Below are positions 32,257 to 42,386 of a stretch of DNA of 64,000 nt, piece by piece. The stretch comes from Capnocytophaga periodontitidis. Lineage in GTDB: Bacteria; Bacteroidota; Bacteroidia; Flavobacteriales; Flavobacteriaceae. Below the pieces are notes generated by a model. The model did no database searches and had not been told where the DNA came from. It was given only the letters and a program-made list of their open reading frames with translations. The translations under genes were made by a program, and so were the position numbers. The stretch spans positions 786,716 to 850,715 of the forward strand of contig NZ_JAEFDB010000001.1 in NCBI RefSeq assembly GCF_016126015.1, read 5' to 3'. Within the stretch, counting starts at the first letter, position 1; the number at the start of each line of letters is the position of its first letter.

Positions 32257-32342
32257 GCTCGGATGGTGGAATCGGTAGACACGCTGGACTTAAAATCCAG
32301 TGGGCAGTAATGCCTGTGCGGGTTCAAGTCCCGCTCCGAGTA
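32257..32342 (+). tRNA. tRNA-Leu (anticodon TAA); integration site of the element
   Basis: 86 nt, class II with a long variable arm. Acceptor GCTCGGA/TCCGAGT, anticodon stem CTGGA/TCCAG with loop CTTAAAA. Its last 16 nt belong to the 23-bp repeat bounding the integrated element, so the 3' end seen here is the junction copy and the tRNA stays intact. Confidence 0.96.
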
Positions 32343-32349
32343 CAACCCT
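32327..32349 (+). repeat. attL, left 23-bp direct repeat
   Basis: Begins AGTCCCGCTCC and ends TACAACCCT; identical to 42364-42386. It covers the last 16 nt of tRNA-Leu plus 7 nt beyond. Confidence 0.93.
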
Positions 32350-32356
32350 CAACTAT

Positions 32357-32389
32357 AACCCTTTGAAATTCAAAGGGTTTTATTTTTTT
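32357..32389 (+). terminator. Element-borne terminator directly behind tRNA-Leu
   Basis: Perfect stem AACCCTTTGAA/TTCAAAGGGTT (32357-32367 and 32369-32379) then TTATTTTTTT. It lies inside the element and replaces the chromosomal tRNA terminator now found at 42388. Confidence 0.8.
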
Positions 32390-32399
32390 AAGGGCTGAT

Positions 32400-32421
32400 T
32401 TAGCCGACATTTAGCCGAAAA
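32400..32421 (+). repeat. Left pair of 11-bp integrase-arm-like repeats
   Basis: TTAGCCGACAT (32400-32410) followed directly by TTAGCCGAAAA (32411-32421). The second is identical to the three tandem copies near attR. Confidence 0.75.
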
Positions 32422-33091
32422 CTTTCAAAAAACCATTTTTCAGGGGTGTTTTTTTACCTCCTGAATGTAACTATAAAAAAATAAAATCACCGCCTCGTTA
32501 TAGGTAGTGATTTTTTCTTTTTTATAAGGCGTAAAAATTCCACTGTTTTATGATTGCCTCCTGACTTTATACAAGTGTACGTTTTTTAACACTTGTTCTT
32601 TTTATCTCCCACACTTAACACGTAACTTCTACGTGTTTAAAAATACTGCCATTTACTGCATACCTACTGACAAAAGAGAATAAACATACACGGGGCGGGG
32701 TATTTTGAAAAATATTGAATGATGATCACCTCCAACTATATTAAAAACTATAAAAAGCACCTTTTGCGTAGCCCTGCTGTTAGTTAGTTCTGTTTGGATG
32801 TTAGGTTGCAACTTACAACCTTTTGCCCTGATAGGTTGCAACCTTTTAAGGTATGCTCAATTTTGAGCAGTGCTGATTATTTAGCAGTCTTCCTCAGTTC
32901 TGAGTGTGCTTTTTTATAAAGGCGACAAAAATCAAAAAAAAGCATTTGCTTTTATAAAGAGGCAAAAATTTACAATCGCTTCAAAAACGAAAAAATATTT
33001 GTTCCTGATTTGCCTTTTTTATAAGGCGCATAAAATACCCTAATCGCTTGAAAAACGAAAAGAATAACAAGTGATTTTTAACTGTAAATCT
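32422..33091. other. Gene-free, repeat-rich end of the element; candidate origin or attachment accessory region
   Basis: No credible gene is seen here. It holds: a perfect hairpin AACACGTA/TACGTGTT (32617-32637); ACAAGTG/CACTTGT (about 32570-32595); two AGGTTGCAA boxes (about 32800-32850), one within the palindrome GGTTGCAACC; four TTTTATAARGCG-like boxes (about 32516, 32910, 32950 and 33014); and two copies of ATCGCTTSAAAAACGAAAA (32975 and 33042) that with their flanks form a degenerate repeat of about 66 bp. Such iteron-like structure downstream of a replication gene suits an origin, but this is inference. Confidence 0.5.
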
Positions 33092-33125
33092 AAAAAAATA
33101 CCCCTGCTCAAATATAAGCAAGGGT
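33092..33125 (-). terminator. Terminator of the early (replication) operon
   Basis: Minus strand: ACCCTTGCTT/AAGCAGGGGT-type imperfect stem followed by T7. It lies downstream of the 69-residue gene and closes the operon that starts at 36417. Confidence 0.65.
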
Positions 33126-33258
33126 AAAAATATAATAACATAAAAACACAATAAAAAAAACAAGTCAATTTTTCATTATTTCGTTCTTTGTGATATGGTG
33201 TATTACTATACGGGTGATAATCAAAAATTAAGCCGTTTCCGTGCGTTTCTGAATAGTG

Positions 33259-33468
33259 CTACACGTTTTTCAAGTTCTGACTTTTTGCCGTGTAGTTAGC
33301 AAACTTAATCTTATTTATCAATTCAGTTGCCTCGTCCGTGTCTAATATCGCACGGACTTTTGTAGGTTCGCCCTCTTTGGGGGTAACCTCAATTTCTAAT
33401 GATACAAACCAAAAACACGCCTCTTTGTGTACTTTTGTCGTAATTCTAACTTTTGCTTTGTTTTCCAT
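33259..33468 (-). CDS. Small unknown protein of the element
   Basis: 69 residues (MENKAKVRITTKVHKEACFW). It looks like a small mixed alpha/beta domain with strands VRITTKV, FWFVSLEIEV and VRAILDTDEATELINKI, and no recognised motif. Last gene of the early operon, 22 bp after the replication initiator, so possibly a replication accessory or single-strand-binding factor; that is a guess from position only. Confidence 0.55.
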   Translation of the reverse strand: MENKAKVRITTKVHKEACFWFVSLEIEVTPKEGEPTKVRAILDTDEATELINKIKFANYTAKSQNLKNV

Positions 33469-33490
33469 AAATCGTTTTTTTTTTGAATTT

Positions 33491-35023
33491 TTATAAATCT
33501 AATGATAATTGATTTTTTAAATCACTCCCCTGCATTATAGCCCTTGTGCCTTCTGATTTGTTATAATAACGATTGCGCACTTGCTTCGCCAACTGGTTTA
33601 TGATAGTTTTCTCAAAAACTGGTTTAACCCCCGTGTGTGGTAATAACAAACTACAAAGCAATGAATATAAATGCTCGTCTGTCTCTTTTACGTGCATTAT
33701 AGTATTCGTACGAATATAACGCGCATTCTCTTTTTCTAACTCTAAACTTATGCCCGTTATAACACACTTACGCGGGTAGTCTTTTGATAACGGTTTAAGG
33801 TCTGTTTTTTGAGGTGTTTTTTTATCCAAATTTGCCACCCCGTTTTTAACCTCTTTTTGAGGTGTTTTTTTGGTGTCTTTTGAGTCTGATTTTTTACCCT
33901 CTTTTTTTAACCCCTCTGGGAACGTTCTTACACTATACTTAAACGGTAAGTTTATACCCTCTTTTTGGTTTTTAGGGGTGTCCTGATAGGTCGGTAAGTT
34001 TATACCCTCTTTTTGGTTTTTAGGGGTCGGTAAGATTGTGATACTTTTTTCATTTTGTAGGTCGTTTTTTACCTCCTGATTTGCCTCCGTTGGTTGCGGT
34101 GTTGCTGGTAGTGTATAATCACCTGCTTTGCCCTCAATCGTGGCGTTATACCCCGCTATCATTTGCCGTTGTATTTGCCCCTTATAGTTATCCGAATACT
34201 TCTCAATTAGGGTGTTTAATCGGTCTCTTTCTTTATATCGTTGCTTATAGGTTAGCCCCTCCCAAAATGTTCTATTTTGGTACTCTAACACTTTGCGCTT
34301 CTTTGCCTCTGTTAGTCCCTCCGTTTTTAGGCTATAATCGTAATAAATCACCTCGTTAAACTCGCTATAAAGCAAATCAAACGCCTGCTTTAAAGTCGTT
34401 TCGTTAATATCTGCAAGGGTGCTAATGTTTATACCCGCCTCGATTAGTTTTTGCATTTTCATTACTTTAATTTCCACCCTTATCACCTCGTTAGGTAGTT
34501 CGTATTGCCTACCCTTGTTATAAAGTTTAATGTAATATTGTGCGTGCTCAAACTGAATATAATTACCCCCGTGCTTTATGGTAGGGCTGTAATCGTTGCG
34601 GTGATATAGTACCCCTTTGAGAAAATCAAAGGGCGCAAAGGTAACCACGTTATTAACGCCTATCTCAATATTTTGCAAGGTGCAAACGTGCGGGCTAATA
34701 TCAAGCACCCCGCAAAGGTGCGTAATTGTGTCCGTAATATCCTGCAAGGTGAATAGATCACCATTGTAGCCCTTATATTTATCTATTTGCGCACTGGTGG
34801 CAATATCTTTGATAATACTACGATACTTATGCAAACTACCTGCAAGCACAAAGCCCGTGCCCGTTGGGGTGATATTCATATTTTTGTACAAATACGCCTC
34901 TTTTACCTCGCCCGTGTCTGTATCGGTAGTCTCAACCGCAACGGCAAAAATACCCGCCTCTTTGAGTTCCTGAAAGCGGGTATCGTTGCGGTAATTGATA
35001 AATGCCTTAAAATAGTCAATCAT
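33491..35023 (-). CDS. Phage/plasmid-type replication initiator protein
   Basis: 510 residues. The middle part (LQNIEIGVNNV about 119-129, YYIKLYNKGRQYELPNEVIRVEIKV about 165-190, FNEVIYYDY about 220) has the layout of Bacteroidota replication proteins related to filamentous-phage gene II/X and Rep_trans initiators; the C-terminus (PRKCVITGISLELEKENARYI) resembles the Cys-containing tail of the same group. In between lies a low-complexity Lys/Pro-rich linker with internal repeats (TPKNQKEGINLP twice). It probably nicks or melts an origin for rolling-circle-type replication of the excised element. Start overlaps the previous stop by 4 bp. Assignment is by remembered family pattern, not a search. 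Confidence 0.65.
   Translation of the reverse strand: MIDYFKAFINYRNDTRFQELKEAGIFAVAVETTDTDTGEVKEAYLYKNMNITPTGTGFVLAGSLHKYRSIIKDIATSAQIDKYKGYNGDLFTLQDITDTITHLCGVLDISPHVCTLQNIEIGVNNVVTFAPFDFLKGVLYHRNDYSPTIKHGGNYIQFEHAQYYIKLYNKGRQYELPNEVIRVEIKVMKMQKLIEAGINISTLADINETTLKQAFDLLYSEFNEVIYYDYSLKTEGLTEAKKRKVLEYQNRTFWEGLTYKQRYKERDRLNTLIEKYSDNYKGQIQRQMIAGYNATIEGKAGDYTLPATPQPTEANQEVKNDLQNEKSITILPTPKNQKEGINLPTYQDTPKNQKEGINLPFKYSVRTFPEGLKKEGKKSDSKDTKKTPQKEVKNGVANLDKKTPQKTDLKPLSKDYPRKCVITGISLELEKENARYIRTNTIMHVKETDEHLYSLLCSLLLPHTGVKPVFEKTIINQLAKQVRNRYYNKSEGTRAIMQGSDLKNQLSLDL
33944..34027 (-). repeat. Tandem duplication of period 48 bp in the replication gene linker
   Basis: A 36-bp block at 33944-33979 recurs at 33992-34027. 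It encodes two TPKNQKEGINLP units in the linker between the initiator core and the C-terminal region. Confidence 0.85.
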
Positions 35024-35478
35024 AGCCCTAAAGTCTTTTTTATGTGCCCTATTTGGCTACTAATGAACGCTCCTACCTCGTTGGCAGGCGGGTAATAATT
35101 GGGGTATTCAAAAATTACCATTCTGCTGTTATCGTATTTAAACACGAAAAACAAAAACGACACTTTGCGCGTGTAGCCGTTCGCCTGCTTTTCTGATATA
35201 TCACCAAAATAAATTAAGTTGTGGTTTGTAGCAAATAGCCCCGTAATTGGGTCGCTCCATTTGCCACGCTTGCCGTTATTCATTGAAGCGTTTTTATACC
35301 AAAAATAAACGCTTTGTGACTTGTTAAAGTGCCTTTGTAGTGATATGTTTGCAAAGTCTTTAATGCGTGTCTTTGCTTCGTTACCACTTATCCAAAAACG
35401 CTCGAAATGCTTCACCTCCTTAAACTTGTTGGAGGTCTCTAACTTGTTAAATGAATGTATTATAATTTCGTGTCCCAT
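35020..35478 (-). CDS. Unknown protein of the element's early operon (152 aa)
   Basis: 152 residues starting MGHEIIIHSFNKLETSNKF. A mixed alpha/beta protein with aromatic-rich strands (SVYFWYKN, VSFLFFVFKYDNSRMVIFEYPNYYP). No catalytic motif is recognised. Its stop overlaps the replication initiator's start by 4 bp, which suggests coupled translation and a role in replication. It starts 4 bp after the stop of the 174-residue gene. Confidence 0.6.
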   Translation of the reverse strand: MGHEIIIHSFNKLETSNKFKEVKHFERFWISGNEAKTRIKDFANISLQRHFNKSQSVYFWYKNASMNNGKRGKWSDPITGLFATNHNLIYFGDISEKQANGYTRKVSFLFFVFKYDNSRMVIFEYPNYYPPANEVGAFISSQIGHIKKTLGL

Positions 35479-35482
35479 TGCT

Positions 35483-36007
35483 TTATTTGTTTTTAAGGTT
35501 ATCGCACTCTCTGAAAAAAGTATCTATATTTATACCCCCGTCAAAGAATGCACAAATTAAACTACTGAACGCTTCAGAGGTTACCACCGTACCGTTTGAC
35601 TCGTCTCCGTTGGTGAGTCCCATTACATAACCGATAAGGGTGTAATGCGGTACTATATCCAACGATGCTAAAACGTTGTGTAATTTATCCTGCCAGTCCC
35701 AAAGATTGGACACTAACGTTAAAAACTCCACAACCTCGCTTTGTTGTAACGCTACCCCCTGCATTGCCATTTTCATTACTTTGTAATAAGGCGATAAGTT
35801 TAATTTAGGGAGGTTCGCCTCCTCAAAAAAAGTATTAAGGCGGTGTCCACTATGTAGCCCCTCGATAATGTACAAGGGTATGTTAAACTCTGTACCAGTA
35901 CTGTCGTGAAAATCTAAAATATCACCTACCACGTACGCATTTTCTGTAGCCTCTGATACTAATTCAAAGGCAATGTTTTTAAAAAGATTGCTGTTTAAAA
36001 TTCTCAT
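35483..36007 (-). CDS. Unknown protein of the element's early operon (174 aa)
   Basis: 174 residues (MRILNSNLFKNIAFELVSEA), acidic and mostly helical in its second half (VVEFLTLVSNLWDWQDKLHNVLASLD). No signal peptide, membrane segment or catalytic motif recognised. It lies 23 bp after the 128-residue gene and 4 bp before the 152-residue gene, inside one transcription unit. Confidence 0.55.
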   Translation of the reverse strand: MRILNSNLFKNIAFELVSEATENAYVVGDILDFHDSTGTEFNIPLYIIEGLHSGHRLNTFFEEANLPKLNLSPYYKVMKMAMQGVALQQSEVVEFLTLVSNLWDWQDKLHNVLASLDIVPHYTLIGYVMGLTNGDESNGTVVTSEAFSSLICAFFDGGINIDTFFRECDNLKNK

Positions 36008-36030
36008 TTTCTTATTATGTTTAAAGGTTA

Positions 36031-36417
36031 TTATACTAAGTTAAAATATTGTGCTTGTGCTGGTGTGCAAAGGGCTATTACTTTGTTAAGGCTTCGCTTG
36101 TGTAGGCTGCTCAATATGGTATGCAGTTTATTATCTAAATCATTCCAAAAGCCCCAAGTATAGCCCGCTGTATTACCCCCGTCTATGTACTGATAACAAG
36201 TATTAAATGCGTTAATGTTACGGGCTATTTGCTCGATACGTTCAGGCGTTGCGGTTACCTTTTTGCTCTTTTTAGGGTGTCTTAATCGGTAACTTTGCCA
36301 AGCAGCCTTTAAAGCACTTGCAAAGGTGCGATACACGGGGCGCAACTCGTTATAAAGGCGGTGCGCTTCTTTAAATACCTTGCTTCTAAAATCGTTATTT
36401 GTTACTTGCTTTTTCAT
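36031..36417 (-). CDS. First gene of the element's early operon, small basic protein
   Basis: 128 residues from ATG 36417 (MKKQVTNNDFRSKVFKEAHRLYNEL). The N-terminal segment with ASALKAAWQSYRLRHPKKSKK is basic and resembles short DNA-associated proteins common on Bacteroidota phages and mobile elements. The longer frame to 36492 runs through the promoter (36451-36481) and operator and is rejected. First gene under repressor control; could be an activator or antirepressor, by position only. Confidence 0.6.
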   Translation of the reverse strand: MKKQVTNNDFRSKVFKEAHRLYNELRPVYRTFASALKAAWQSYRLRHPKKSKKVTATPERIEQIARNINAFNTCYQYIDGGNTAGYTWGFWNDLDNKLHTILSSLHKRSLNKVIALCTPAQAQYFNLV

Positions 36418-36450
36418 AGTGTTTAAAATTATTGTTTTACTTTTACGATG

Positions 36451-36481
36451 CAAAGATAAAACTATAATTTTATATATACAA
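36451..36481 (-). promoter_or_regulatory. Early promoter of the element, leftward
   Basis: Minus strand: TTG (36481-36479), 20 nt, TATCTTTG (36458-36451). The operator-like site 36457-36475 fills most of the spacer, so a bound repressor would block it. Confidence 0.65.
36457..36475 (+). promoter_or_regulatory. Operator-like site O1
   Basis: TAAAACTATAATTTTATAT, itself partly palindromic. Matches the reverse complement of 36518-36536 at 18 of 19 positions. Sits in the spacer of the leftward promoter. Confidence 0.65.
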
Positions 36482-36517
36482 GTTTTTTGCAAATTATTTT
36501 TTTATTTTTTTTGATTA

Positions 36518-36536
36518 ATATAAAAGTATAGTTTTA
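36518..36536 (-). promoter_or_regulatory. Operator-like site O2
   Basis: Reverse complement reads TAAAACTATACTTTTATAT, one mismatch to O1. Lies just upstream of the repressor's -7 element, placing it to control the repressor's own promoter. Confidence 0.65.
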
Positions 36537-36542
36537 TTTTAC

Positions 36543-36550
36543 TATCTTTG
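36543..36550 (+). promoter_or_regulatory. -7 element of the repressor promoter
   Basis: TATCTTTG, 28 bp before the repressor ATG. No TTG at the right spacing; the operator O2 occupies that position, suggesting a weak, self-controlled promoter. Confidence 0.5.
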
Positions 36551-36577
36551 CGCCCTAATAACTAATATTTAAATGCT

Positions 36578-36874
36578 ATGTTACGAATAAAAGAGATTGC
36601 AAAAGAAAAGGGTATTGCTTTAAACGATTTGGCTAATATGTTAGGTATAACCTACCAAGCATTAAACGCTCGCATTACTGGTAATCCTTCATTAAAGGTG
36701 CTTATTGAGTTGGCAAACGTTCTTGATGTAGATGTAAGGGACTTAATAGAGCCTACGAAAAGCACTTTTAAACGCCCCTTATTTATCAAAGACGATAACG
36801 GGGTATTATTAGAGGTCGGTACACTCAATTTCCAAAAGTCCCAAAGCACCCCGCCTGAAAGCATTCAGGAGTAG
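36578..36874 (+). CDS. Xre-family helix-turn-helix repressor of the element
   Basis: 98 residues; the only plus-strand gene of the element. Residues 3-61 form a Cro/C1-type helix-turn-helix (IKEIAKEKGIALNDLANMLGITYQALNARITGN, quoted here as helices 1-3 and split by the turn at NMLG). The short C-terminal tail (FIKDDNGVLLEVGTLNF) has no peptidase, so release from DNA is not by RecA-type self-cleavage and may need an antirepressor. It faces the early operon across two inverted operator-like sites and should hold the element dormant. Followed by a repeat region and terminator. Confidence 0.85.
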   Translation: MLRIKEIAKEKGIALNDLANMLGITYQALNARITGNPSLKVLIELANVLDVDVRDLIEPTKSTFKRPLFIKDDNGVLLEVGTLNFQKSQSTPPESIQE

Positions 36875-36888
36875 GTTGCCAGGGATAT

Positions 36889-36941
36889 GCACCGCAACGG
36901 CTACTATTGTCCAATTTTGGACAGTAGCACGGCAACGGCTA
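36889..36941 (+). repeat. Paired 15-bp direct repeats around a hairpin
   Basis: GCACCGCAACGGCTA (36889-36903) and GCACGGCAACGGCTA (36927-36941) differ at one base. Between them, GTCCAATTTTGGAC-type inverted sequence (36903-36926) can form a hairpin. G+C-rich against its surroundings. It lies between the repressor stop and its terminator, so it would be in the repressor transcript. Confidence 0.6.
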
Positions 36942-36958
36942 ACCTTTTGAGCCTATTA

Positions 36959-36994
36959 ACACCCCTCCCCAGATACGGGGAGGGTGTTTTTTTT
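36959..36994 (+). terminator. Terminator of the repressor gene
   Basis: ACACCCCTCCCC/GGGGAGGGTGT (one bulged C) with loop AGATAC, then T8. T-run only on the plus strand. Confidence 0.85.
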
Positions 36995-38018
36995 AATTGA
37001 TTTTAATCATTTCCACTTCAGCCACCGCGCCCGCCTTGTACTTTATTTTGTTAAGCAAAAAGTAGCCCCCAAGTTGTTCAACGTATATACGTGAAAAAAA
37101 AGAAAATTCGTATATATCTATTTCGTTTAAAGCAAATTCAACGGTAACAATGTAAGGGTGTTCCAATAAGCGGGGCAAATCTTTGTAATAAGTGTTAAGT
37201 AAATTTTGCCACTTAAAGAAACTAAAACTCGCAAACTTGTATCCCTCACTATATTCGCTTTCTATTTTTGACTTTAATTTTAGTAAAACACTTGCATTTG
37301 ATGAGTAGTAATTAAGAATATGCCAGCGCGCTGTTTTTTCTTTATATTCGGCTGTTATGTTACCGTCTTTATCTTTCTTTAGTTCTTTTACAAAGAATTC
37401 CATATTCTCTATACCTACATTTTGCCCCTTTAATAAAGTATAATCATTAAAAGGACTATAAAACTTACTTTGAAAGTCTTTGCGTTCAGGCAAATAATTG
37501 TCATTAAAAAACAAAAAAGAGTCATTGCGTTCCTGCTTGTACGCATTTTCGTCATCATATTTTTTATAAACGAAATTGTTTTTTTGTCCGTAACTTAAAT
37601 TGTGATACATACCCTCCTTAACTCTTACAAACTTATCGCTCCATTGTAATTCAGGCGCATTTACTAATTCGTTCAGTGTGTAGAAATGATAATCACCAGT
37701 TTTTCTGTCTCTTATTGGAGTAATAGAAAATATCCTAAAAACCTCCTTAAAAAGGTCTGTTAATGCAAAATCGGTTAATAGAATATCTATATCATCATTA
37801 CGCTTTACCTTTTCAATTTTTAAGGTAATACCGTCATTATATAGAATGCTCGGTGTAGGATATTCCCCTATATTTTTTGAGTAGTAAAAGAATAAAACAG
37901 TCTCACCCTTTGAAAGTGGTACTATAAATTCCCTATTATATTGAGGAATGCTACTATCCCCCTTAACTACTACCTTTTTAGTGTCTTTTCTCTCTGTACC
38001 TAATAAACTGAAAAGCAT
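36993..38018 (-). CDS. Phage structural-type protein, C-terminal part after an in-frame stop
   Basis: 341 codons from the first ATG (MLFSLLGTERKD). The 20 codons between the TAG at 38082 and this ATG are open in the same frame and read as sensible protein (YKITITINNLNTTG), so this is the downstream half of a 639-residue gene, not an independent one. It contains YHNLSYGQKNNFVYKKYDDE and a beta-rich C-terminus (LNEIDIYEFSFFSRIYVEQLGGYFLLNKIKY) like hub or baseplate-type proteins of Bacteroidota tailed phages. No ribosome-binding site is seen at the internal ATG. Family assignment is by general pattern only. Confidence 0.55.
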   Translation of the reverse strand: MLFSLLGTERKDTKKVVVKGDSSIPQYNREFIVPLSKGETVLFFYYSKNIGEYPTPSILYNDGITLKIEKVKRNDDIDILLTDFALTDLFKEVFRIFSITPIRDRKTGDYHFYTLNELVNAPELQWSDKFVRVKEGMYHNLSYGQKNNFVYKKYDDENAYKQERNDSFLFFNDNYLPERKDFQSKFYSPFNDYTLLKGQNVGIENMEFFVKELKKDKDGNITAEYKEKTARWHILNYYSSNASVLLKLKSKIESEYSEGYKFASFSFFKWQNLLNTYYKDLPRLLEHPYIVTVEFALNEIDIYEFSFFSRIYVEQLGGYFLLNKIKYKAGAVAEVEMIKIN

Positions 38019-38081
38019 ACCTATTTCGGCTTCTATATTCCCAGTAGTATTTAGATTATTGATAGTGATAGTAATTTTATA

Positions 38082-38084
38082 CTA
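38082..38084 (-). other. Single in-frame amber codon (TAG) splitting the structural-type gene
   Basis: 36993-38912 is exactly 640 codons with one internal TAG here (plus-strand CTA). Flanking codons (IVKERG before, YKITIT after) stay in frame. No other stop or frameshift is seen in the gene, so this is one nonsense change, or a read-through site. Confidence 0.85.
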
Positions 38085-38912
38085 TCCTCTTTCTTTTACT
38101 ATGTAGGGGGCGCTAAGCCTTAACCACCTTAATTTAAAGGTTTTATTTTCTTCCTTAAATCCCCACTTACCACCATTTTGATAAGACATTCCCTCGTCAA
38201 TTCCTCCTCCCTCATAGGTGGCATTAAAAGAGTCTCCCTCAATGTTATCATTATATTTAATGTTTGAAGATGCTATAAATGTATTTTTCCATTCACCAGT
38301 TTTAAAAATATCACCCTCGAATGTAATACCACTCATACTTTGAACGATTCTGAATATCCTATCCAATCTTATAGATAAGGGAGTGTTGTCAAAATCATAT
38401 TCAATTAGATTTTCTCCTTTGCTGTCAGTTATTGCAGCATCGTCCCCATAGTTGCCAATTAAATACAATAAATCAGATTCATCATTGTAGTAATCGTGCT
38501 GATCTTTAATATTAGATATTGTCCTTTTAGCGTTATCATCTAACAAACCAACTAATCCTTTAATATCTCTATTTCGCAAGAATTGGTATAGTTGTAATGC
38601 CCTATCCTTAAACTCGAATATGTAGTAATTATCACGTTCGCCAATTAGGTAGCCGATAGCATTCTGTACTATTGGAATACCATTAACATAATAATCGACC
38701 TTGTGAGTCTTGTATGCTTCGACCTTGTCACTAAGAGGTTCGTTTGCAAATCCGAAAATAATATTATTGGTAGGGGTAGTAGGTAGGTATATAGTTTCTG
38801 AATACGACACTTCACGAGTGTCGAAATTAAACATATCATTTACCTGCAAAGTGTAGGTAAACGGCTTTTGTTTTACATCTGACTTTTGTCCGTTTATATA
38901 CAACTCTATCAT
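38082..38912 (-). CDS. Phage structural-type protein, N-terminal part ending at an in-frame amber
   Basis: 276 residues beginning MIELYINGQKSDVKQKPFTY. This start, followed by a motif of the type VSYSETIYLPTTPTNNIIFG (about 39-58), is typical of a Bacteroidota tailed-phage structural protein, probably tail-tip or baseplate related, normally about twice this length. The frame stops at TAG (38082-38084) and continues open for 362 further codons. Together with the next part it encodes one 639-residue protein. It follows the helix-turn-helix gene by 109 bp. Without suppression only the first 276 residues are made. Confidence 0.6.
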   Translation of the reverse strand: MIELYINGQKSDVKQKPFTYTLQVNDMFNFDTREVSYSETIYLPTTPTNNIIFGFANEPLSDKVEAYKTHKVDYYVNGIPIVQNAIGYLIGERDNYYIFEFKDRALQLYQFLRNRDIKGLVGLLDDNAKRTISNIKDQHDYYNDESDLLYLIGNYGDDAAITDSKGENLIEYDFDNTPLSIRLDRIFRIVQSMSGITFEGDIFKTGEWKNTFIASSNIKYNDNIEGDSFNATYEGGGIDEGMSYQNGGKWGFKEENKTFKLRWLRLSAPYIVKERG

Positions 38913-39021
38913 AATTATTTTTTTTTATTAAAAAAGATTCATACCTTTGCCACGTGTGAATTTGCACACCCACAATTTTTAAAAACGCATACAAAGGGGC
39001 TACGTGCCTCTTTGTTTGTTT

Positions 39022-39303
39022 TTACCCCTCTTTTAGCCGTATTAGGGCACTATCTACCTCGTGCCGTTTGTAGTATATACGCGCACCTATACCGTACGCT
39101 TTTAACTTCCCTTGCTTCGTCCAATGGTGCAAAGTACTCATATTGATATTAAGCATTTTTTGCACCTCCTTACGTGTTAGGTACTCCGTTGGTTCTTTTG
39201 GCTGAAAATCTTTTTTTAGTTCTTTAAGTTCAGCACGCACCCCCTCCAAAATCATTGCTTGTAATTGCGCGGGGGTAGTTTGAATAAATTGTACTGTTTC
39301 CAT
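39022..39303 (-). CDS. Helix-turn-helix (MerR/excisionase-like) DNA-binding protein
   Basis: 93 residues from ATG 39303 (METVQFIQTTPAQLQAMI); 12 extra codons upstream are possible but lack support. The C-terminal half has a winged-helix HTH_17 motif: YLTRKEVQKMLNINMSTLHH, then WTKQGKLKAYGIGARIYYKR, as in excisionase-like proteins of Bacteroidota elements. It could act as the recombination directionality factor with the integrase, or regulate the downstream gene. Its transcription is separated from the integrase operon by a terminator at 39399. Confidence 0.78.
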   Translation of the reverse strand: METVQFIQTTPAQLQAMILEGVRAELKELKKDFQPKEPTEYLTRKEVQKMLNINMSTLHHWTKQGKLKAYGIGARIYYKRHEVDSALIRLKEG

Positions 39304-39398
39304 TTTTCTAATGATTGTTTTTATTTGTTTGCGGTGCAAAGGAATATTAGGTAAAAATTAAGTAGTACTTAAAAAGAATGAATGAATAATAATAAAAA

Positions 39399-39433
39399 CG
39401 AAAAAGGCTCTAAGGAATAACCTTAAAGCCTTT
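39399..39433 (-). terminator. Terminator of the integrase-terS-270 aa operon
   Basis: Minus strand: AAAGGCTTTAAGG/CCTTAGAGCCTTT with a 5-nt loop and TTTTTC tail, 23 bp past the 270-residue gene's stop. Confidence 0.75.
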
Positions 39434-39455
39434 GTATATAAGCAATTAGAATGTT

Positions 39456-40268
39456 TTATAACTTCTTAGCGACATAGCCTAACTTCTGTAATATTTGCCG
39501 TGCTTTCTCTTTATGTATCTTTTTGGGTGCATTTCGTTGGTCTGTATCGGGGCTAATAATCGGGTTTATATAAGTTTGTAAAGTCTTTGCTTCACCCCCT
39601 ATAATAGCGCTCAATAAAGAGGCTATTTTATTAGCGTTGTTAATCGGATATGCTGTTTTTATTAGGTAATCAAAAATACCCAACTCCTGCAATATAGCAA
39701 GTCTCGTTTTTGTATCCATATCCTCTGAAAAGTCTATCAATTCAGGTTCAGGAGGTGGAGGCGTTGCGGTGCTTTCCTGCTGTAATATAGTAGTATTTAT
39801 TTCGTTACCTAACTCTACAAGTTCATTTTTCAATTTCACACACGATTTGCCTTCATCTAACATTTTCCCTACTTCAGGCATTGATAGTATTCCTTTGCCC
39901 CTTTCCTCATAACGTGCGCTAAAAACCTCTTCTACTAACCAAATAACACCATTGAGAGTTTTTACCCATTGTTGTATTTGTTCAGACAACCTTTTTAACA
40001 TAGATATATTATAGTTGTCTGTACACTTTTTTATAAGTTGTTCTTTTTTGAGCGTTTCACCATTATAACCGTGTTTGATAATCTTTTTAATATTATCACG
40101 GTCTGTATTTTTAGACTCTCTAACAACTAAAATATAATCAATTGTAAATTTTTCAGCATTATCTTTTATCTTATCATCTTTATCAAAAACATTTTGATAT
40201 AAATAATCTGTAAAAGATTCTTTTTTAATATTTTCTTCTGTTTCTAATATATCTTCTAATATATTCAT
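39456..40268 (-). CDS. Unknown element protein (270 aa) with a conserved C-terminal helical domain
   Basis: 270 residues, no signal peptide. The N-terminal half is helical and charged. A Pro/Glu-rich linker (TATPPPPEPELIDF, about 168-181) leads to a C-terminal domain, LAILQELGIFDYLIKTAYPI then KIASLLSAIIGGEAKTLQTYINPII, that resembles the end domain of many uncharacterised proteins from Bacteroidota mobile elements. Third in the integrase operon, 33 bp after the terminase-like gene. Function not known; a regulator or packaging accessory is possible. Confidence 0.6.
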   Translation of the reverse strand: MNILEDILETEENIKKESFTDYLYQNVFDKDDKIKDNAEKFTIDYILVVRESKNTDRDNIKKIIKHGYNGETLKKEQLIKKCTDNYNISMLKRLSEQIQQWVKTLNGVIWLVEEVFSARYEERGKGILSMPEVGKMLDEGKSCVKLKNELVELGNEINTTILQQESTATPPPPEPELIDFSEDMDTKTRLAILQELGIFDYLIKTAYPINNANKIASLLSAIIGGEAKTLQTYINPIISPDTDQRNAPKKIHKEKARQILQKLGYVAKKL

Positions 40269-40301
40269 TTTACCACAATTTTTTAAAAACGTTATTCAAT
40301 A

Positions 40302-40757
40302 TTATTGAGGTTCACCCTCCCATACTACCTTAATACCAGTAACCTCAAAATCACCCTTAAACTCCTGCTTTGTGGGGGCGTTCCACCCCTCCATTTTTGC
40401 AAGTTGTTCAATTGCTCGCAACTGGTCTCTAAATGTAGGGTATACTTTGCCCTCGTCTGTATCGTACGGCTCGCCCCTTGCTATATCTGAAAGATATTGC
40501 AACACCTCCAAACGTGTCAGCGAATACGTTTTTTCCTCTTCTACACCCTTTGCCACTTCCTTTGCAATTAGGGTGTCCATTACCTTGCTATTCCACGCCT
40601 TTAACTTTTTTTGAGCCTCTTTCCAATCGCGTACAAAAGTCCTTTCAGACTTTCCAAAAGTCGCTATATACATTGTTAGAAAGTCTCTATAACCATTCAT
40701 AGGGTATTTTCTAAGTTCATTAAATAACCACTTTTGTCGTATTTCTGTTTTTGTCAT
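40302..40757 (-). CDS. Phage terminase small subunit-like protein
   Basis: 151 residues. An N-terminal helix-turn-helix-like part (MNGYRDFLTMYIATFGKSERTF) is followed by a central helical region with RLEVLQYLSDIARGEPYD and TFRDQLRAIEQLAKMEGWNAP (about 83-130), the layout of small terminase subunits, where Arg/Leu-rich helices precede a KMEGW-type segment and a short C-terminal strand (GIKVVWEGEP). These proteins select DNA for packaging. No large terminase subunit is present in the element. Between the integrase (19 bp) and the 270-residue gene. Assignment is moderate; it could be another phage HTH protein. Confidence 0.6.
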   Translation of the reverse strand: MTKTEIRQKWLFNELRKYPMNGYRDFLTMYIATFGKSERTFVRDWKEAQKKLKAWNSKVMDTLIAKEVAKGVEEEKTYSLTRLEVLQYLSDIARGEPYDTDEGKVYPTFRDQLRAIEQLAKMEGWNAPTKQEFKGDFEVTGIKVVWEGEPQ

Positions 40758-40776
40758 ATCTTTACGAATTTTTTTA

Positions 40777-42141
40777 TTATCCTATTTTCGTCCTCAAAGG
40801 TTTTAATGTAGGTACGTTTACCGCCTCCAACTCTTGCAGCCTATTAGCCGTTTGCAGTAGGTAGTCCGTTGCGGTTTTGCCTATGTACGCTAAAAACGTG
40901 CTTTCCTTTGTGTGTCCTGTCATTTGCATAATAAAAGCCGTCTCCAATTTGCCATATAGGTTTGTCGCAAATGAACGCCTACACGTGTGAGAGCCTACCA
41001 ATTGCCACTTCTCAAACACGCCCTTAACCGTTCTTTTCACTCCCTTACTGGCGTAGTTACCCTTATCGTCCTGCTCTATAATATTACCCTTATCGTCCAC
41101 CATACACACTTTGGAATGCTCGATAAGTTCGTTAATACCCGCCAATTTGCATACCTGCTTTATATACTGGTCAAACTTCTGTACCGATATTTTGTAAGGG
41201 AGTCCGTTATTCCTGATAGTGTTTATTTCCTGCAATGCTCCAACAATCGGAATGCGTGCTATTTTGCCCGTCTTTTGTTGTTTAAGTTCTACATACTCCA
41301 CCCCGTCAATATGCTGTACAAAATTGCTTTCTGTAAGGTCTAACAAGTCGCCCCCGCGTTGTCCTAACAAGCACCCCAATAATAACCATTTGCGGGCGTT
41401 ATCCAAACTTTTATTTTCAATCACACAACCACGCACCCTTTCCAAGTCCAACGCATTAAGATACACGGGCGTTTCTTTGTCAGGCGTTCCCTTTCCTACT
41501 TTTGTCAGTTGCGGGCTGGTTTCCATTCCCAACGCTTGCGCCTCGTTACATACTGCTTTCAGGTTATCAATAATTTTTAAAGCATAACTATCTTTATACC
41601 CTCTTTCATTCATTAGCCAGCCCAAAAACACTTTTTCAAAGGGAGTGTTTATATCCTTTGCCTTGTATCGTTTGCGGGTGTACGCCTGATAGTCTATAAA
41701 AATGCTTTTGAGGGTGTGATAGGCTTTTACTCGGCTAACAGATATACCGAGCGTTCCTCGTCCGTTTTTACGTGTCGAGTGGTTTTGAATGATATGGTCT
41801 ATTAGTTCAGTAATTAGGTCGCTTTGCTTTGTTGCGGTATCTGTTATTCGTTTAAAGTGTATATCCACTTTGTCTTTTAACCATTGTGTATTAATCACCT
41901 CGCCCCGTTGGTCTGATAGGTTTACACACTTTTCAATGAATTGCCGCAAGGCGTTCAGGTCTATTGCTGTATTTTTATGCTCTATTGCAGTAGTCTTTGG
42001 CAGTTGCTTTGCCACGCTCCACGCTTTAGGGTCTATAAATAGCCCCGTTTTACATTTGTAGTCTTTATCTCTACTAATGATTAAACGCACGTATATAGGA
42101 GCGTTATCACTTTTGCTTTGAAGAATGAATTTTATAACCAT
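40777..42141 (-). CDS. Tyrosine recombinase/integrase of the element
   Basis: 454 residues. N-terminal Arm-DNA-binding domain (MVIKFILQSKSDNAPIYVRL, GLFIDPKAW) and SAM-like core-binding domain (about 100-215), then the catalytic domain: first Arg in LLGCLLGQRGGDLLDL (about 274), Lys in ELKQQKTGK, HTCRRSFATNL (His-x-x-Arg, about 390), GHTKESTFLAYIGK (His and nucleophile Tyr, about 415-425). The catalytic set is complete. It lies 220 bp inside attR, transcribed inward, and should catalyse integration into tRNA-Leu. Confidence 0.93.
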   Translation of the reverse strand: MVIKFILQSKSDNAPIYVRLIISRDKDYKCKTGLFIDPKAWSVAKQLPKTTAIEHKNTAIDLNALRQFIEKCVNLSDQRGEVINTQWLKDKVDIHFKRITDTATKQSDLITELIDHIIQNHSTRKNGRGTLGISVSRVKAYHTLKSIFIDYQAYTRKRYKAKDINTPFEKVFLGWLMNERGYKDSYALKIIDNLKAVCNEAQALGMETSPQLTKVGKGTPDKETPVYLNALDLERVRGCVIENKSLDNARKWLLLGCLLGQRGGDLLDLTESNFVQHIDGVEYVELKQQKTGKIARIPIVGALQEINTIRNNGLPYKISVQKFDQYIKQVCKLAGINELIEHSKVCMVDDKGNIIEQDDKGNYASKGVKRTVKGVFEKWQLVGSHTCRRSFATNLYGKLETAFIMQMTGHTKESTFLAYIGKTATDYLLQTANRLQELEAVNVPTLKPLRTKIG

Positions 42142-42204
42142 ATTACAACCACTATTTTTAAAAACACCGCAAAGATAAAAATAAAAAAATACACCTCCAA
42201 AAAG

Positions 42205-42237
42205 TTAGCCGAAAATTAGCCGAAAATTAGCCGAAAA
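42205..42237 (+). repeat. Right triple of 11-bp integrase-arm-like repeats
   Basis: Three exact tandem copies of TTAGCCGAAAA (42205, 42216, 42227), in the same orientation as the left pair at 32400. They lie between the integrase start and attR. The remaining 126 bp up to attR are AT-rich with no other feature. Confidence 0.85.
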
Positions 42238-42363
42238 TATGCAATTTTATACAATATCATACAATCACCGCACACTACTAAAACACTCTTTAAATATCTG
42301 TTTTTCATATAATTACATACTAAAAATTAAGCACTTACAAAAGCCTTGTAAATACGTGGTTAC

Positions 42364-42386
42364 AGTCCCGCTCCGAGTACAACCCT
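42364..42386 (+). repeat. attR, right 23-bp direct repeat
   Basis: Identical to 32327-32349. Upstream flank differs from tRNA-Leu (GTGGTTAC against CGGGTTCA), so only the 3' end of the tRNA is duplicated. Confidence 0.93.

Follow-up and report, generated by a model that had tools for sequence, protein, structure and literature searches.

Phage-inducible chromosomal islands (PICIs) are characterized in PMC6092414 as islands flanked by attachment (att) sites that carry a divergent repressor, a replication gene of their own and sometimes a small terminase subunit (TerS), without structural or lytic genes. MobT relaxases, which belong to the Rep_trans family, serve integrative and mobilizable or integrative and conjugative elements (IMEs/ICEs) of Firmicutes (PMC5704250), and RteC activates the excision operon of Bacteroides conjugative transposons (CTns), most of which exceed 60 kb (PMC10865816). 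Here, we analyzed a 64,000-nucleotide stretch of the Capnocytophaga periodontitidis genome (the window; source genome G000, 55 contigs totalling 3.23 Mb) and describe within it a 10,060-bp element at 32327–42386, both ends of which are exact 23-bp repeats. Judged from its sequence, the element is likely a satellite-like island that would be copied by rolling circle and packaged by a helper phage.

The element shares with PICIs, for example with the Staphylococcus aureus pathogenicity islands (SaPIs), a discrete att-flanked form, a similar size, a divergent repressor, its own replication gene, TerS, and the lack of structural and lytic genes. It differs in having a Rep of pT181 fold instead of the PICI replication genes, an RteC-like and an HTH_17 gene, and TerS beside the integrase; moreover, it has no known induction, interference or helper. 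The alpA/stl regulation and pri-rep replication by which PICIs are recognized from gene content were not found (the Pfam scan matched no AlpA or primase family, the regulators found being HTH_17 and Xre), and the element resembles PICIs in strategy but not in gene content. The satellites of Vibrionaceae presented in PMC10803314 are likewise small and gene-poor and lack a capsid-remodelling gene, whereas this element belongs to Bacteroidota and combines TerS with a pT181-fold Rep. With the MobT elements (PMC5704250) it has in common an integrated state and a Rep of pT181/Rep_trans fold; it differs in its Bacteroidota host, in a Rep that lies outside the Pfam Rep_trans model, in the packaging genes found in three Capnocytophaga elements, and in that no coupling protein was recognized. 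Finally, CTnDOT-type elements also pair a tyrosine integrase with a nearby RteC-like protein and an HTH_17 gene, but the present element has no conjugation genes, is several times smaller and possesses its own rolling-circle-type Rep. We take its HTH_17 gene to be Xis-like.

The repeat search gave two matches for the 23-bp sequence against a shuffle mean of 0.00 (100 shuffles). Copies of the arm-type motif TTAGCCGAMA lie just inside the element ends, two on the left (32400, 32411) and three on the right (42205, 42216, 42227); the window holds seven in total, with two outside the element ends (14330, 50929) and a chance mean of 0.22. From the right, the minus strand encodes the integrase, TerS, p270, HTH_17 and a two-part tail-type gene, followed by Xre on the plus strand and the early operon p153-p174-p152-Rep-p69 on the minus strand. 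A sequence-only reading of this DNA had noted the exact end repeats, the arm-type repeats at both ends, the integrase, the Xre repressor set against a divergent operon and the replication initiator, all of which we confirmed. The features are as follows.

32257–32343, plus strand: tRNA-Leu(taa), the integration target (ARAGORN).
32327–32349, plus strand: attL, exact 23-bp repeat, overlapping the 3′ end of tRNA-Leu(taa).
32400–32420, plus strand: arm-type repeats, two copies of TTAGCCGA(C/A)A (motif scan).
32638–33258, no strand: segment without coding genes, conserved in part with C. bilenii; may be an origin or a packaging site.
33259–33468, minus strand: p69, a 69-aa open reading frame (ORF) with no assigned function.
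33491–35023, minus strand: Rep, predicted rolling-circle initiator of pT181 fold.
35020–35478, minus strand: p152, conserved gene upstream of rep (88% in C. bilenii, 49–50% in C. cynodegmi and C. felis).
35483–36007, minus strand: p174, early-operon gene with no assigned function (40% in C. bilenii).
36031–36492, minus strand: p153, first gene of the early operon, no assigned function (55% in C. bilenii).
36453–36540, no strand: region of the divergent promoters, spanned by a 23-nt inverted repeat (91%); putative operators for Xre.
36578–36874, plus strand: Xre (Cro/C1-type) repressor (PF01381, E 1.3e-9; 76% in C. bilenii).
36993–38018, minus strand: interrupted tail-type gene, downstream part (67% to a prophage protein of Capnocytophaga genome G017; 98% to protein P0029).
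38082–38912, minus strand: tail-type gene, upstream part, stopping at an in-frame TAG (70% to the G017 prophage protein; 97% to P0029).
39022–39339, minus strand: HTH_17 (excisionase/MerR-like) regulator (PF12728, E 7.2e-12; 93% in C. bilenii).
39456–40268, minus strand: p270, RteC-like by position and C-terminal similarity (C-terminal 46% to a C. felis protein).
40302–40757, minus strand: TerS, phage small-terminase homologue (57% in C. bilenii, same slot).
40777–42141, minus strand: tyrosine integrase with arm-binding and SAM-like domains (phrog_1, E 7.1e-18; PF13102 above the cut-off).
42205–42236, plus strand: arm-type repeats, three copies of TTAGCCGAAA (motif scan).
42364–42386, plus strand: attR, exact 23-bp repeat (repeat search and shuffles).

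Twelve element proteins were scanned against Pfam and ten of these against PHROGs. Neither scan matched a large terminase (TerL), portal, capsid, lysis or conjugation family, in agreement with the sequence-only reading; of a capsid, portal, tail and lysis set, the interrupted tail-type gene was the one component recognized. For the integrase, PF00589 (E 9.4e-6) and PF17293 both scored slightly below the Pfam cut-offs.

The family scores of TerS were weak (Pfam E 0.005, below the cut-off; phrog_51 E 6e-6), yet the terminase-small-subunit identity originally proposed for it is backed, because homologues of it adjoin terL. In the viral contigs L065 and L064, a TerS relative lies directly upstream of terL; the window TerS is 33% identical to that of L065 (E 5.6e-12; hhalign probability 98.3%), where the terS ORF ends 3 nt before terL. 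SPP1-like TerS proteins occupy Foldseek ranks 1–4 (E 0.02–0.05). Comparison with PDB sequences gave nothing credible and comparison with named phages gave no match. The terL-linked homologues support the window protein as a genuine relative of phage TerS and as a candidate for the packaging gene expected of a phage satellite. The gene is retained in C. bilenii with a ratio of nonsynonymous to synonymous substitution (dN/dS) of 0.42; of 24 relatives found, 20 have a length of 139 aa or more. Two of the seven TerS tested, P0023 and P0024, whose tails are near-identical, share 19 of 23 final residues with the TerS tail of the G017 prophage (0 of 1000 shuffles). In addition, G004 has a TerS domain fused to the TerL N-terminus (L060:7106-8728, 540 aa), and short ORFs with the TerS C-terminal domain occur in several places in G001 and G013 (L010, L012, L013, L014, L018).

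Rep has a predicted pT181-type fold and qualifies by fold as a pT181/Rep_trans protein. The Pfam Rep_trans model matched 0 of the 38 Rep family members at E 0.01, and the names offered by five Pfam and three NCBIfam families each fit a single member and look like chance. Searches of PDB sequences gave nothing credible, plasmids no match, and named phages one weak match, to an unannotated faecal contig. Y168, situated in a K-x-Y-x-K motif, is invariant across the 38 sequences and would be the nucleophile of the predicted Rep. The low-confidence middle part of Rep contains a perfect 36-bp direct repeat (33944–33979 and 33992–34027).

A profile scan of genome contigs with the Rep alignment yielded 37 loci, four of which (L066, L068, L069 and L090) duplicate G002, G008, G009 and G072; by genus, we take all 37 to be Bacteroidota. 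Integrase, HTH_17 and Rep occur in this order on one strand within 6 kb in 27 of them, and HTH_17 lies upstream of Rep in 36. Within Flavobacteriales, the order of Capnocytophaga, Rep is present in 52 of the 395 genomes searched, and HTH_17 is no more than 1.5 kb away in 29 of 30 loci returned, the thirtieth being the window itself. Weak relatives of p152 precede rep in Cytophagales loci; the integrase and p152 found no relative in IMG/VR by single-sequence query. The sequence-only reading had suggested looking for the same gene order in other tRNA-Leu sites; related elements lie at this tRNA in C. bilenii, C. cynodegmi and C. felis. Three TerL profiles detected no TerL gene in the 37 loci; the fused TerS-TerL profile matched solely the C. 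bilenii TerS (L066). The queries for portal, protease and tape measure had no relative there by phmmer; their sources, like those of the TerL queries, were limited to prophages of Capnocytophaga and two viral contigs. A weak blastp match to a tape measure in L097 and, in L173, a hit of the TerS profile to the rep ORF (one of 30 loci) were set aside as chance or coiled-coil. Repeats of at least 17 bp overlapping a tRNA gene, a raw count without shuffle control, were present in 15 of 45 sequences (13 after subtraction of two duplicates), the set comprising the window, seven fetched regions, 36 Rep loci and the viral contig L103.

The site 3′ of tRNA-Leu, displayed for 13 of 20 loci, is occupied in three (window, C. 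cynodegmi, C. felis) and element-free in ten. Empty sites exist, since three of the ten continue with genes that flank attR in the window: G004 and G013 run into the gene directly to its right (42442), and G014 into the next, a proline-dehydrogenase-like gene (42998); the other seven run into other genes. The tRNA-Gly/tRNA-Leu pair of the window also carries related elements in L044, L045 and L046. Blocks 32639–32952 and 33090–33316 are 75–76% identical to C. bilenii L044, and a 22-bp stretch at the left arm-type repeats recurs identically in the C. bilenii element, close to its integrase end. At the same 23-bp tRNA-Leu core, the C. bilenii element has a tandem neighbour of 26 kb that encodes another integrase (G002:C19:118059-144381; L149, L150) and bears on the PICI criterion of att sites that prophages never occupy; by eye, it encodes many small proteins and a peptidase-like gene, and is perhaps a tailless phage.

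Among 20 Capnocytophaga genomes, six contain Rep: those of the window, C. bilenii, C. cynodegmi and C. felis, whose elements all lie at tRNA-Leu, and G007 and G011. The slot beside the integrase (slot 1) holds TerS in the window and C. bilenii, and a Fic-type gene in C. cynodegmi, C. felis and the metagenome-assembled genome L067. On this comparison, TerS is an accessory gene of the element family, many members of which lack it. In G007, Rep with HTH_17 upstream occupies a 3.6-kb locus (L199, G007:C16:1542-5117) in which terminase profiles were not matched. The G011 element (L151:16362 to L152:14370) encodes an integrase, a 255-aa protein, HTH_17 and a Rep belonging to the family (E 1.8e-37). 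Immediately after Rep come a gene in the TerS position and TerL, which scores 42.5 bits on PF04466 (cut-off 23.2), and next AAA, HNH, AAA and SIR2 genes; ten of the element's 18 ORFs were scanned, the remainder including five of unassigned kind (250, 99, 240, 401 and 397 aa). Its att repeats were not found; by eye, the element follows a gene resembling mnmE. Phage packaging genes thus reside inside the element in three of the six genomes, and because their insertion places differ (slot 1 versus after Rep), these comparisons indicate that they probably joined this core at least twice.

Regarding a helper, the TerLs adjoining this TerS family are relatives of the G017 prophage TerL (E 5e-122 and 1e-83), so the helper TerL would be of that kind. 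The G017 TerL has matches in two of the 20 Capnocytophaga genomes, G017 itself and the G011 element (31%). As the G017 prophage has a TerL of the matching kind, the tail gene and an HTH_17 copy (76%), a phage of this type appears to be a better helper candidate than the resident prophage of G000 (G000:C1, approximately 472–516 kb). The latter has a portal, protease and tape measure; it was rejected as helper, having an unlike gene before terL and no tail-gene relative. The sequence-only reading had proposed looking for a prophage in the same genome that shares the tail gene, but no other place in G000 matches the gene's upstream half. A regulatory link of the resident prophage to the island, whose early promoter aligns with it at 72% identity over 143 bp (0 of 500 shuffles), was not counted because the alignment, viewed by eye, consists of a promoter and leader also found before HTH_17.

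We favor, with somewhat better than even confidence, that the element acts as a satellite to some tailed phage of Capnocytophaga. Xre would silence the early operon until induction; excision from tRNA-Leu by the integrase would be driven by HTH_17 and the RteC-like protein; Rep would copy the element by rolling circle from an origin in the non-coding stretch at 32.6–33.3 kb; and TerS would steer the helper's large terminase and capsid to package the island. Of the earlier proposal of a flavobacterial phage satellite, the discrete tRNA-Leu island with integrase, repressor, rep and TerS stands, and PICI identity by gene content does not.

The chief rival, which we regard as unlikely, assigns Rep a MobT-like role: the element would be a non-canonical IME whose Rep, as a Rep_trans/MobT relative, doubles as relaxase and uses a borrowed conjugation pore, with terS and the tail gene as passengers. 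The predicted pT181/Rep_trans fold fits this explanation given the family membership of MobT (PMC5704250), and with its RteC-like and HTH_17 genes the element is reminiscent of Bacteroides conjugative transposons. The RteC model was not matched by p270 itself in the Pfam scan, and the C. cynodegmi gene at its position scored slightly below the cut-off (PF09357, E 2.7e-5). Delimited with guessed bounds, 20 elements measure approximately 5.2 to 13.5 kb, and the smallest (L071) has little besides integrase, HTH_17 and Rep, as might suit an IME. However, no canonical relaxase or coupling-protein family was found on the 12 proteins scanned against Pfam, and the packaging genes in half of the six Capnocytophaga Rep genomes count against this reading.

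Alternatively, TerS may be an anti-phage decoy that sabotages packaging by incoming phages, slot 1 then being a site for interchangeable defence genes, an explanation that we consider improbable. It draws on the alternation of TerS and Fic-type genes in slot 1, on the faster evolution of TerS relative to integrase, HTH_17, p152 and Rep, and on the cargo of the wider family. Among 124 non-overlapping predicted ORFs (at least about 60 aa; integrase, HTH, rep and p152 excluded) from the 20 elements, the commonest families include HTH regulators, Fic, and restriction-modification models (types IIG and I); the families considered are the 25 commonest of 68 (Pfam), 250 (PADLOC) and 93 (PHROGs) families, so that single terminase or relaxase matches may rank lower. 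Against a decoy, terL in G011 forms a packaging pair with the TerS-position gene that follows Rep, and 14 aligned TerS sequences retain 38 invariant columns, 22 of them in residues 79–151.

The tail-type gene bears on whether the element is what deletion left of a full prophage. Its position was as the sequence-only reading had it, but the gene is not intact: the two ORFs form one reading frame split by TAG. Both halves align with a single 635-aa protein of the G017 prophage (L048:9463-11370), encoded directly before the tape-measure gene, and the downstream half is 29% identical to a protein of Elizabethkingia phage TCUEAP1 whose gene sits between the terminase genes and the tape-measure gene. 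Low dN/dS in both halves (0.165 and 0.145), together with the intact P0029, suggests that the interruption is recent, and the gene is probably non-functional in this copy; TAG is unlikely to encode an amino acid in general, since xre and p69 end in it. The upstream half has matches in four of 149 genomes and lies in an island of this family nowhere but in the window, which is why the gene is cargo, probably captured from a G017-type phage. A deletion remnant would account for an integrase, a repressor and TerS alongside a broken tail gene, and the G017 prophage does carry the tail gene and an HTH_17 copy. We nevertheless judge this origin very improbable: the core recurs in many Bacteroidota, with att-like repeats at tRNA genes and with no relative of the TerL, portal, protease or tape-measure queries (from Capnocytophaga prophages and two viral contigs), and Rep has no match in G017 or in the resident prophage region, its sole place in G000 being the island. 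Homologues confined to full-length prophages, which the sequence-only reading had named as grounds for a remnant, were not what we observed, the core recurring in other genomes without recognized capsid, portal or TerL. Scarcely credible, too, is an integrated filamentous phage (inovirus) or its satellite, copied by rolling circle and extruded, which would account for a rolling-circle-type Rep, Xre and an integrase within about 10 kb but for which no Zot-like ATPase or coat family was found on the proteins scanned (Pfam, PHROGs), and to which TerS, a tailed-phage gene, is foreign.

By extension, the element may exemplify a phylum-wide class of Bacteroidota satellites, defined by an unnamed rolling-circle Rep family with plasmid-like copying unlike that of PICIs, by repeated acquisition of terminase genes and by interchangeable anti-phage cargo; we put this forward tentatively, as a possibility with the weight of probability against it. 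Among the titles listed from an open-licence literature library, none concerned satellites of Bacteroidota phages, and such satellites seem barely described. If the proposal is true, HTH_17 followed by this Rep, together with a tRNA target, would provide a simple signature for such islands, and Capnocytophaga, a mouth bacterium, a testable example in a cultured genus. Lastly, a KilA-N-like cargo gene is present as two ORFs in C. felis (L069:8677-9375) and as one ORF in C. cynodegmi.

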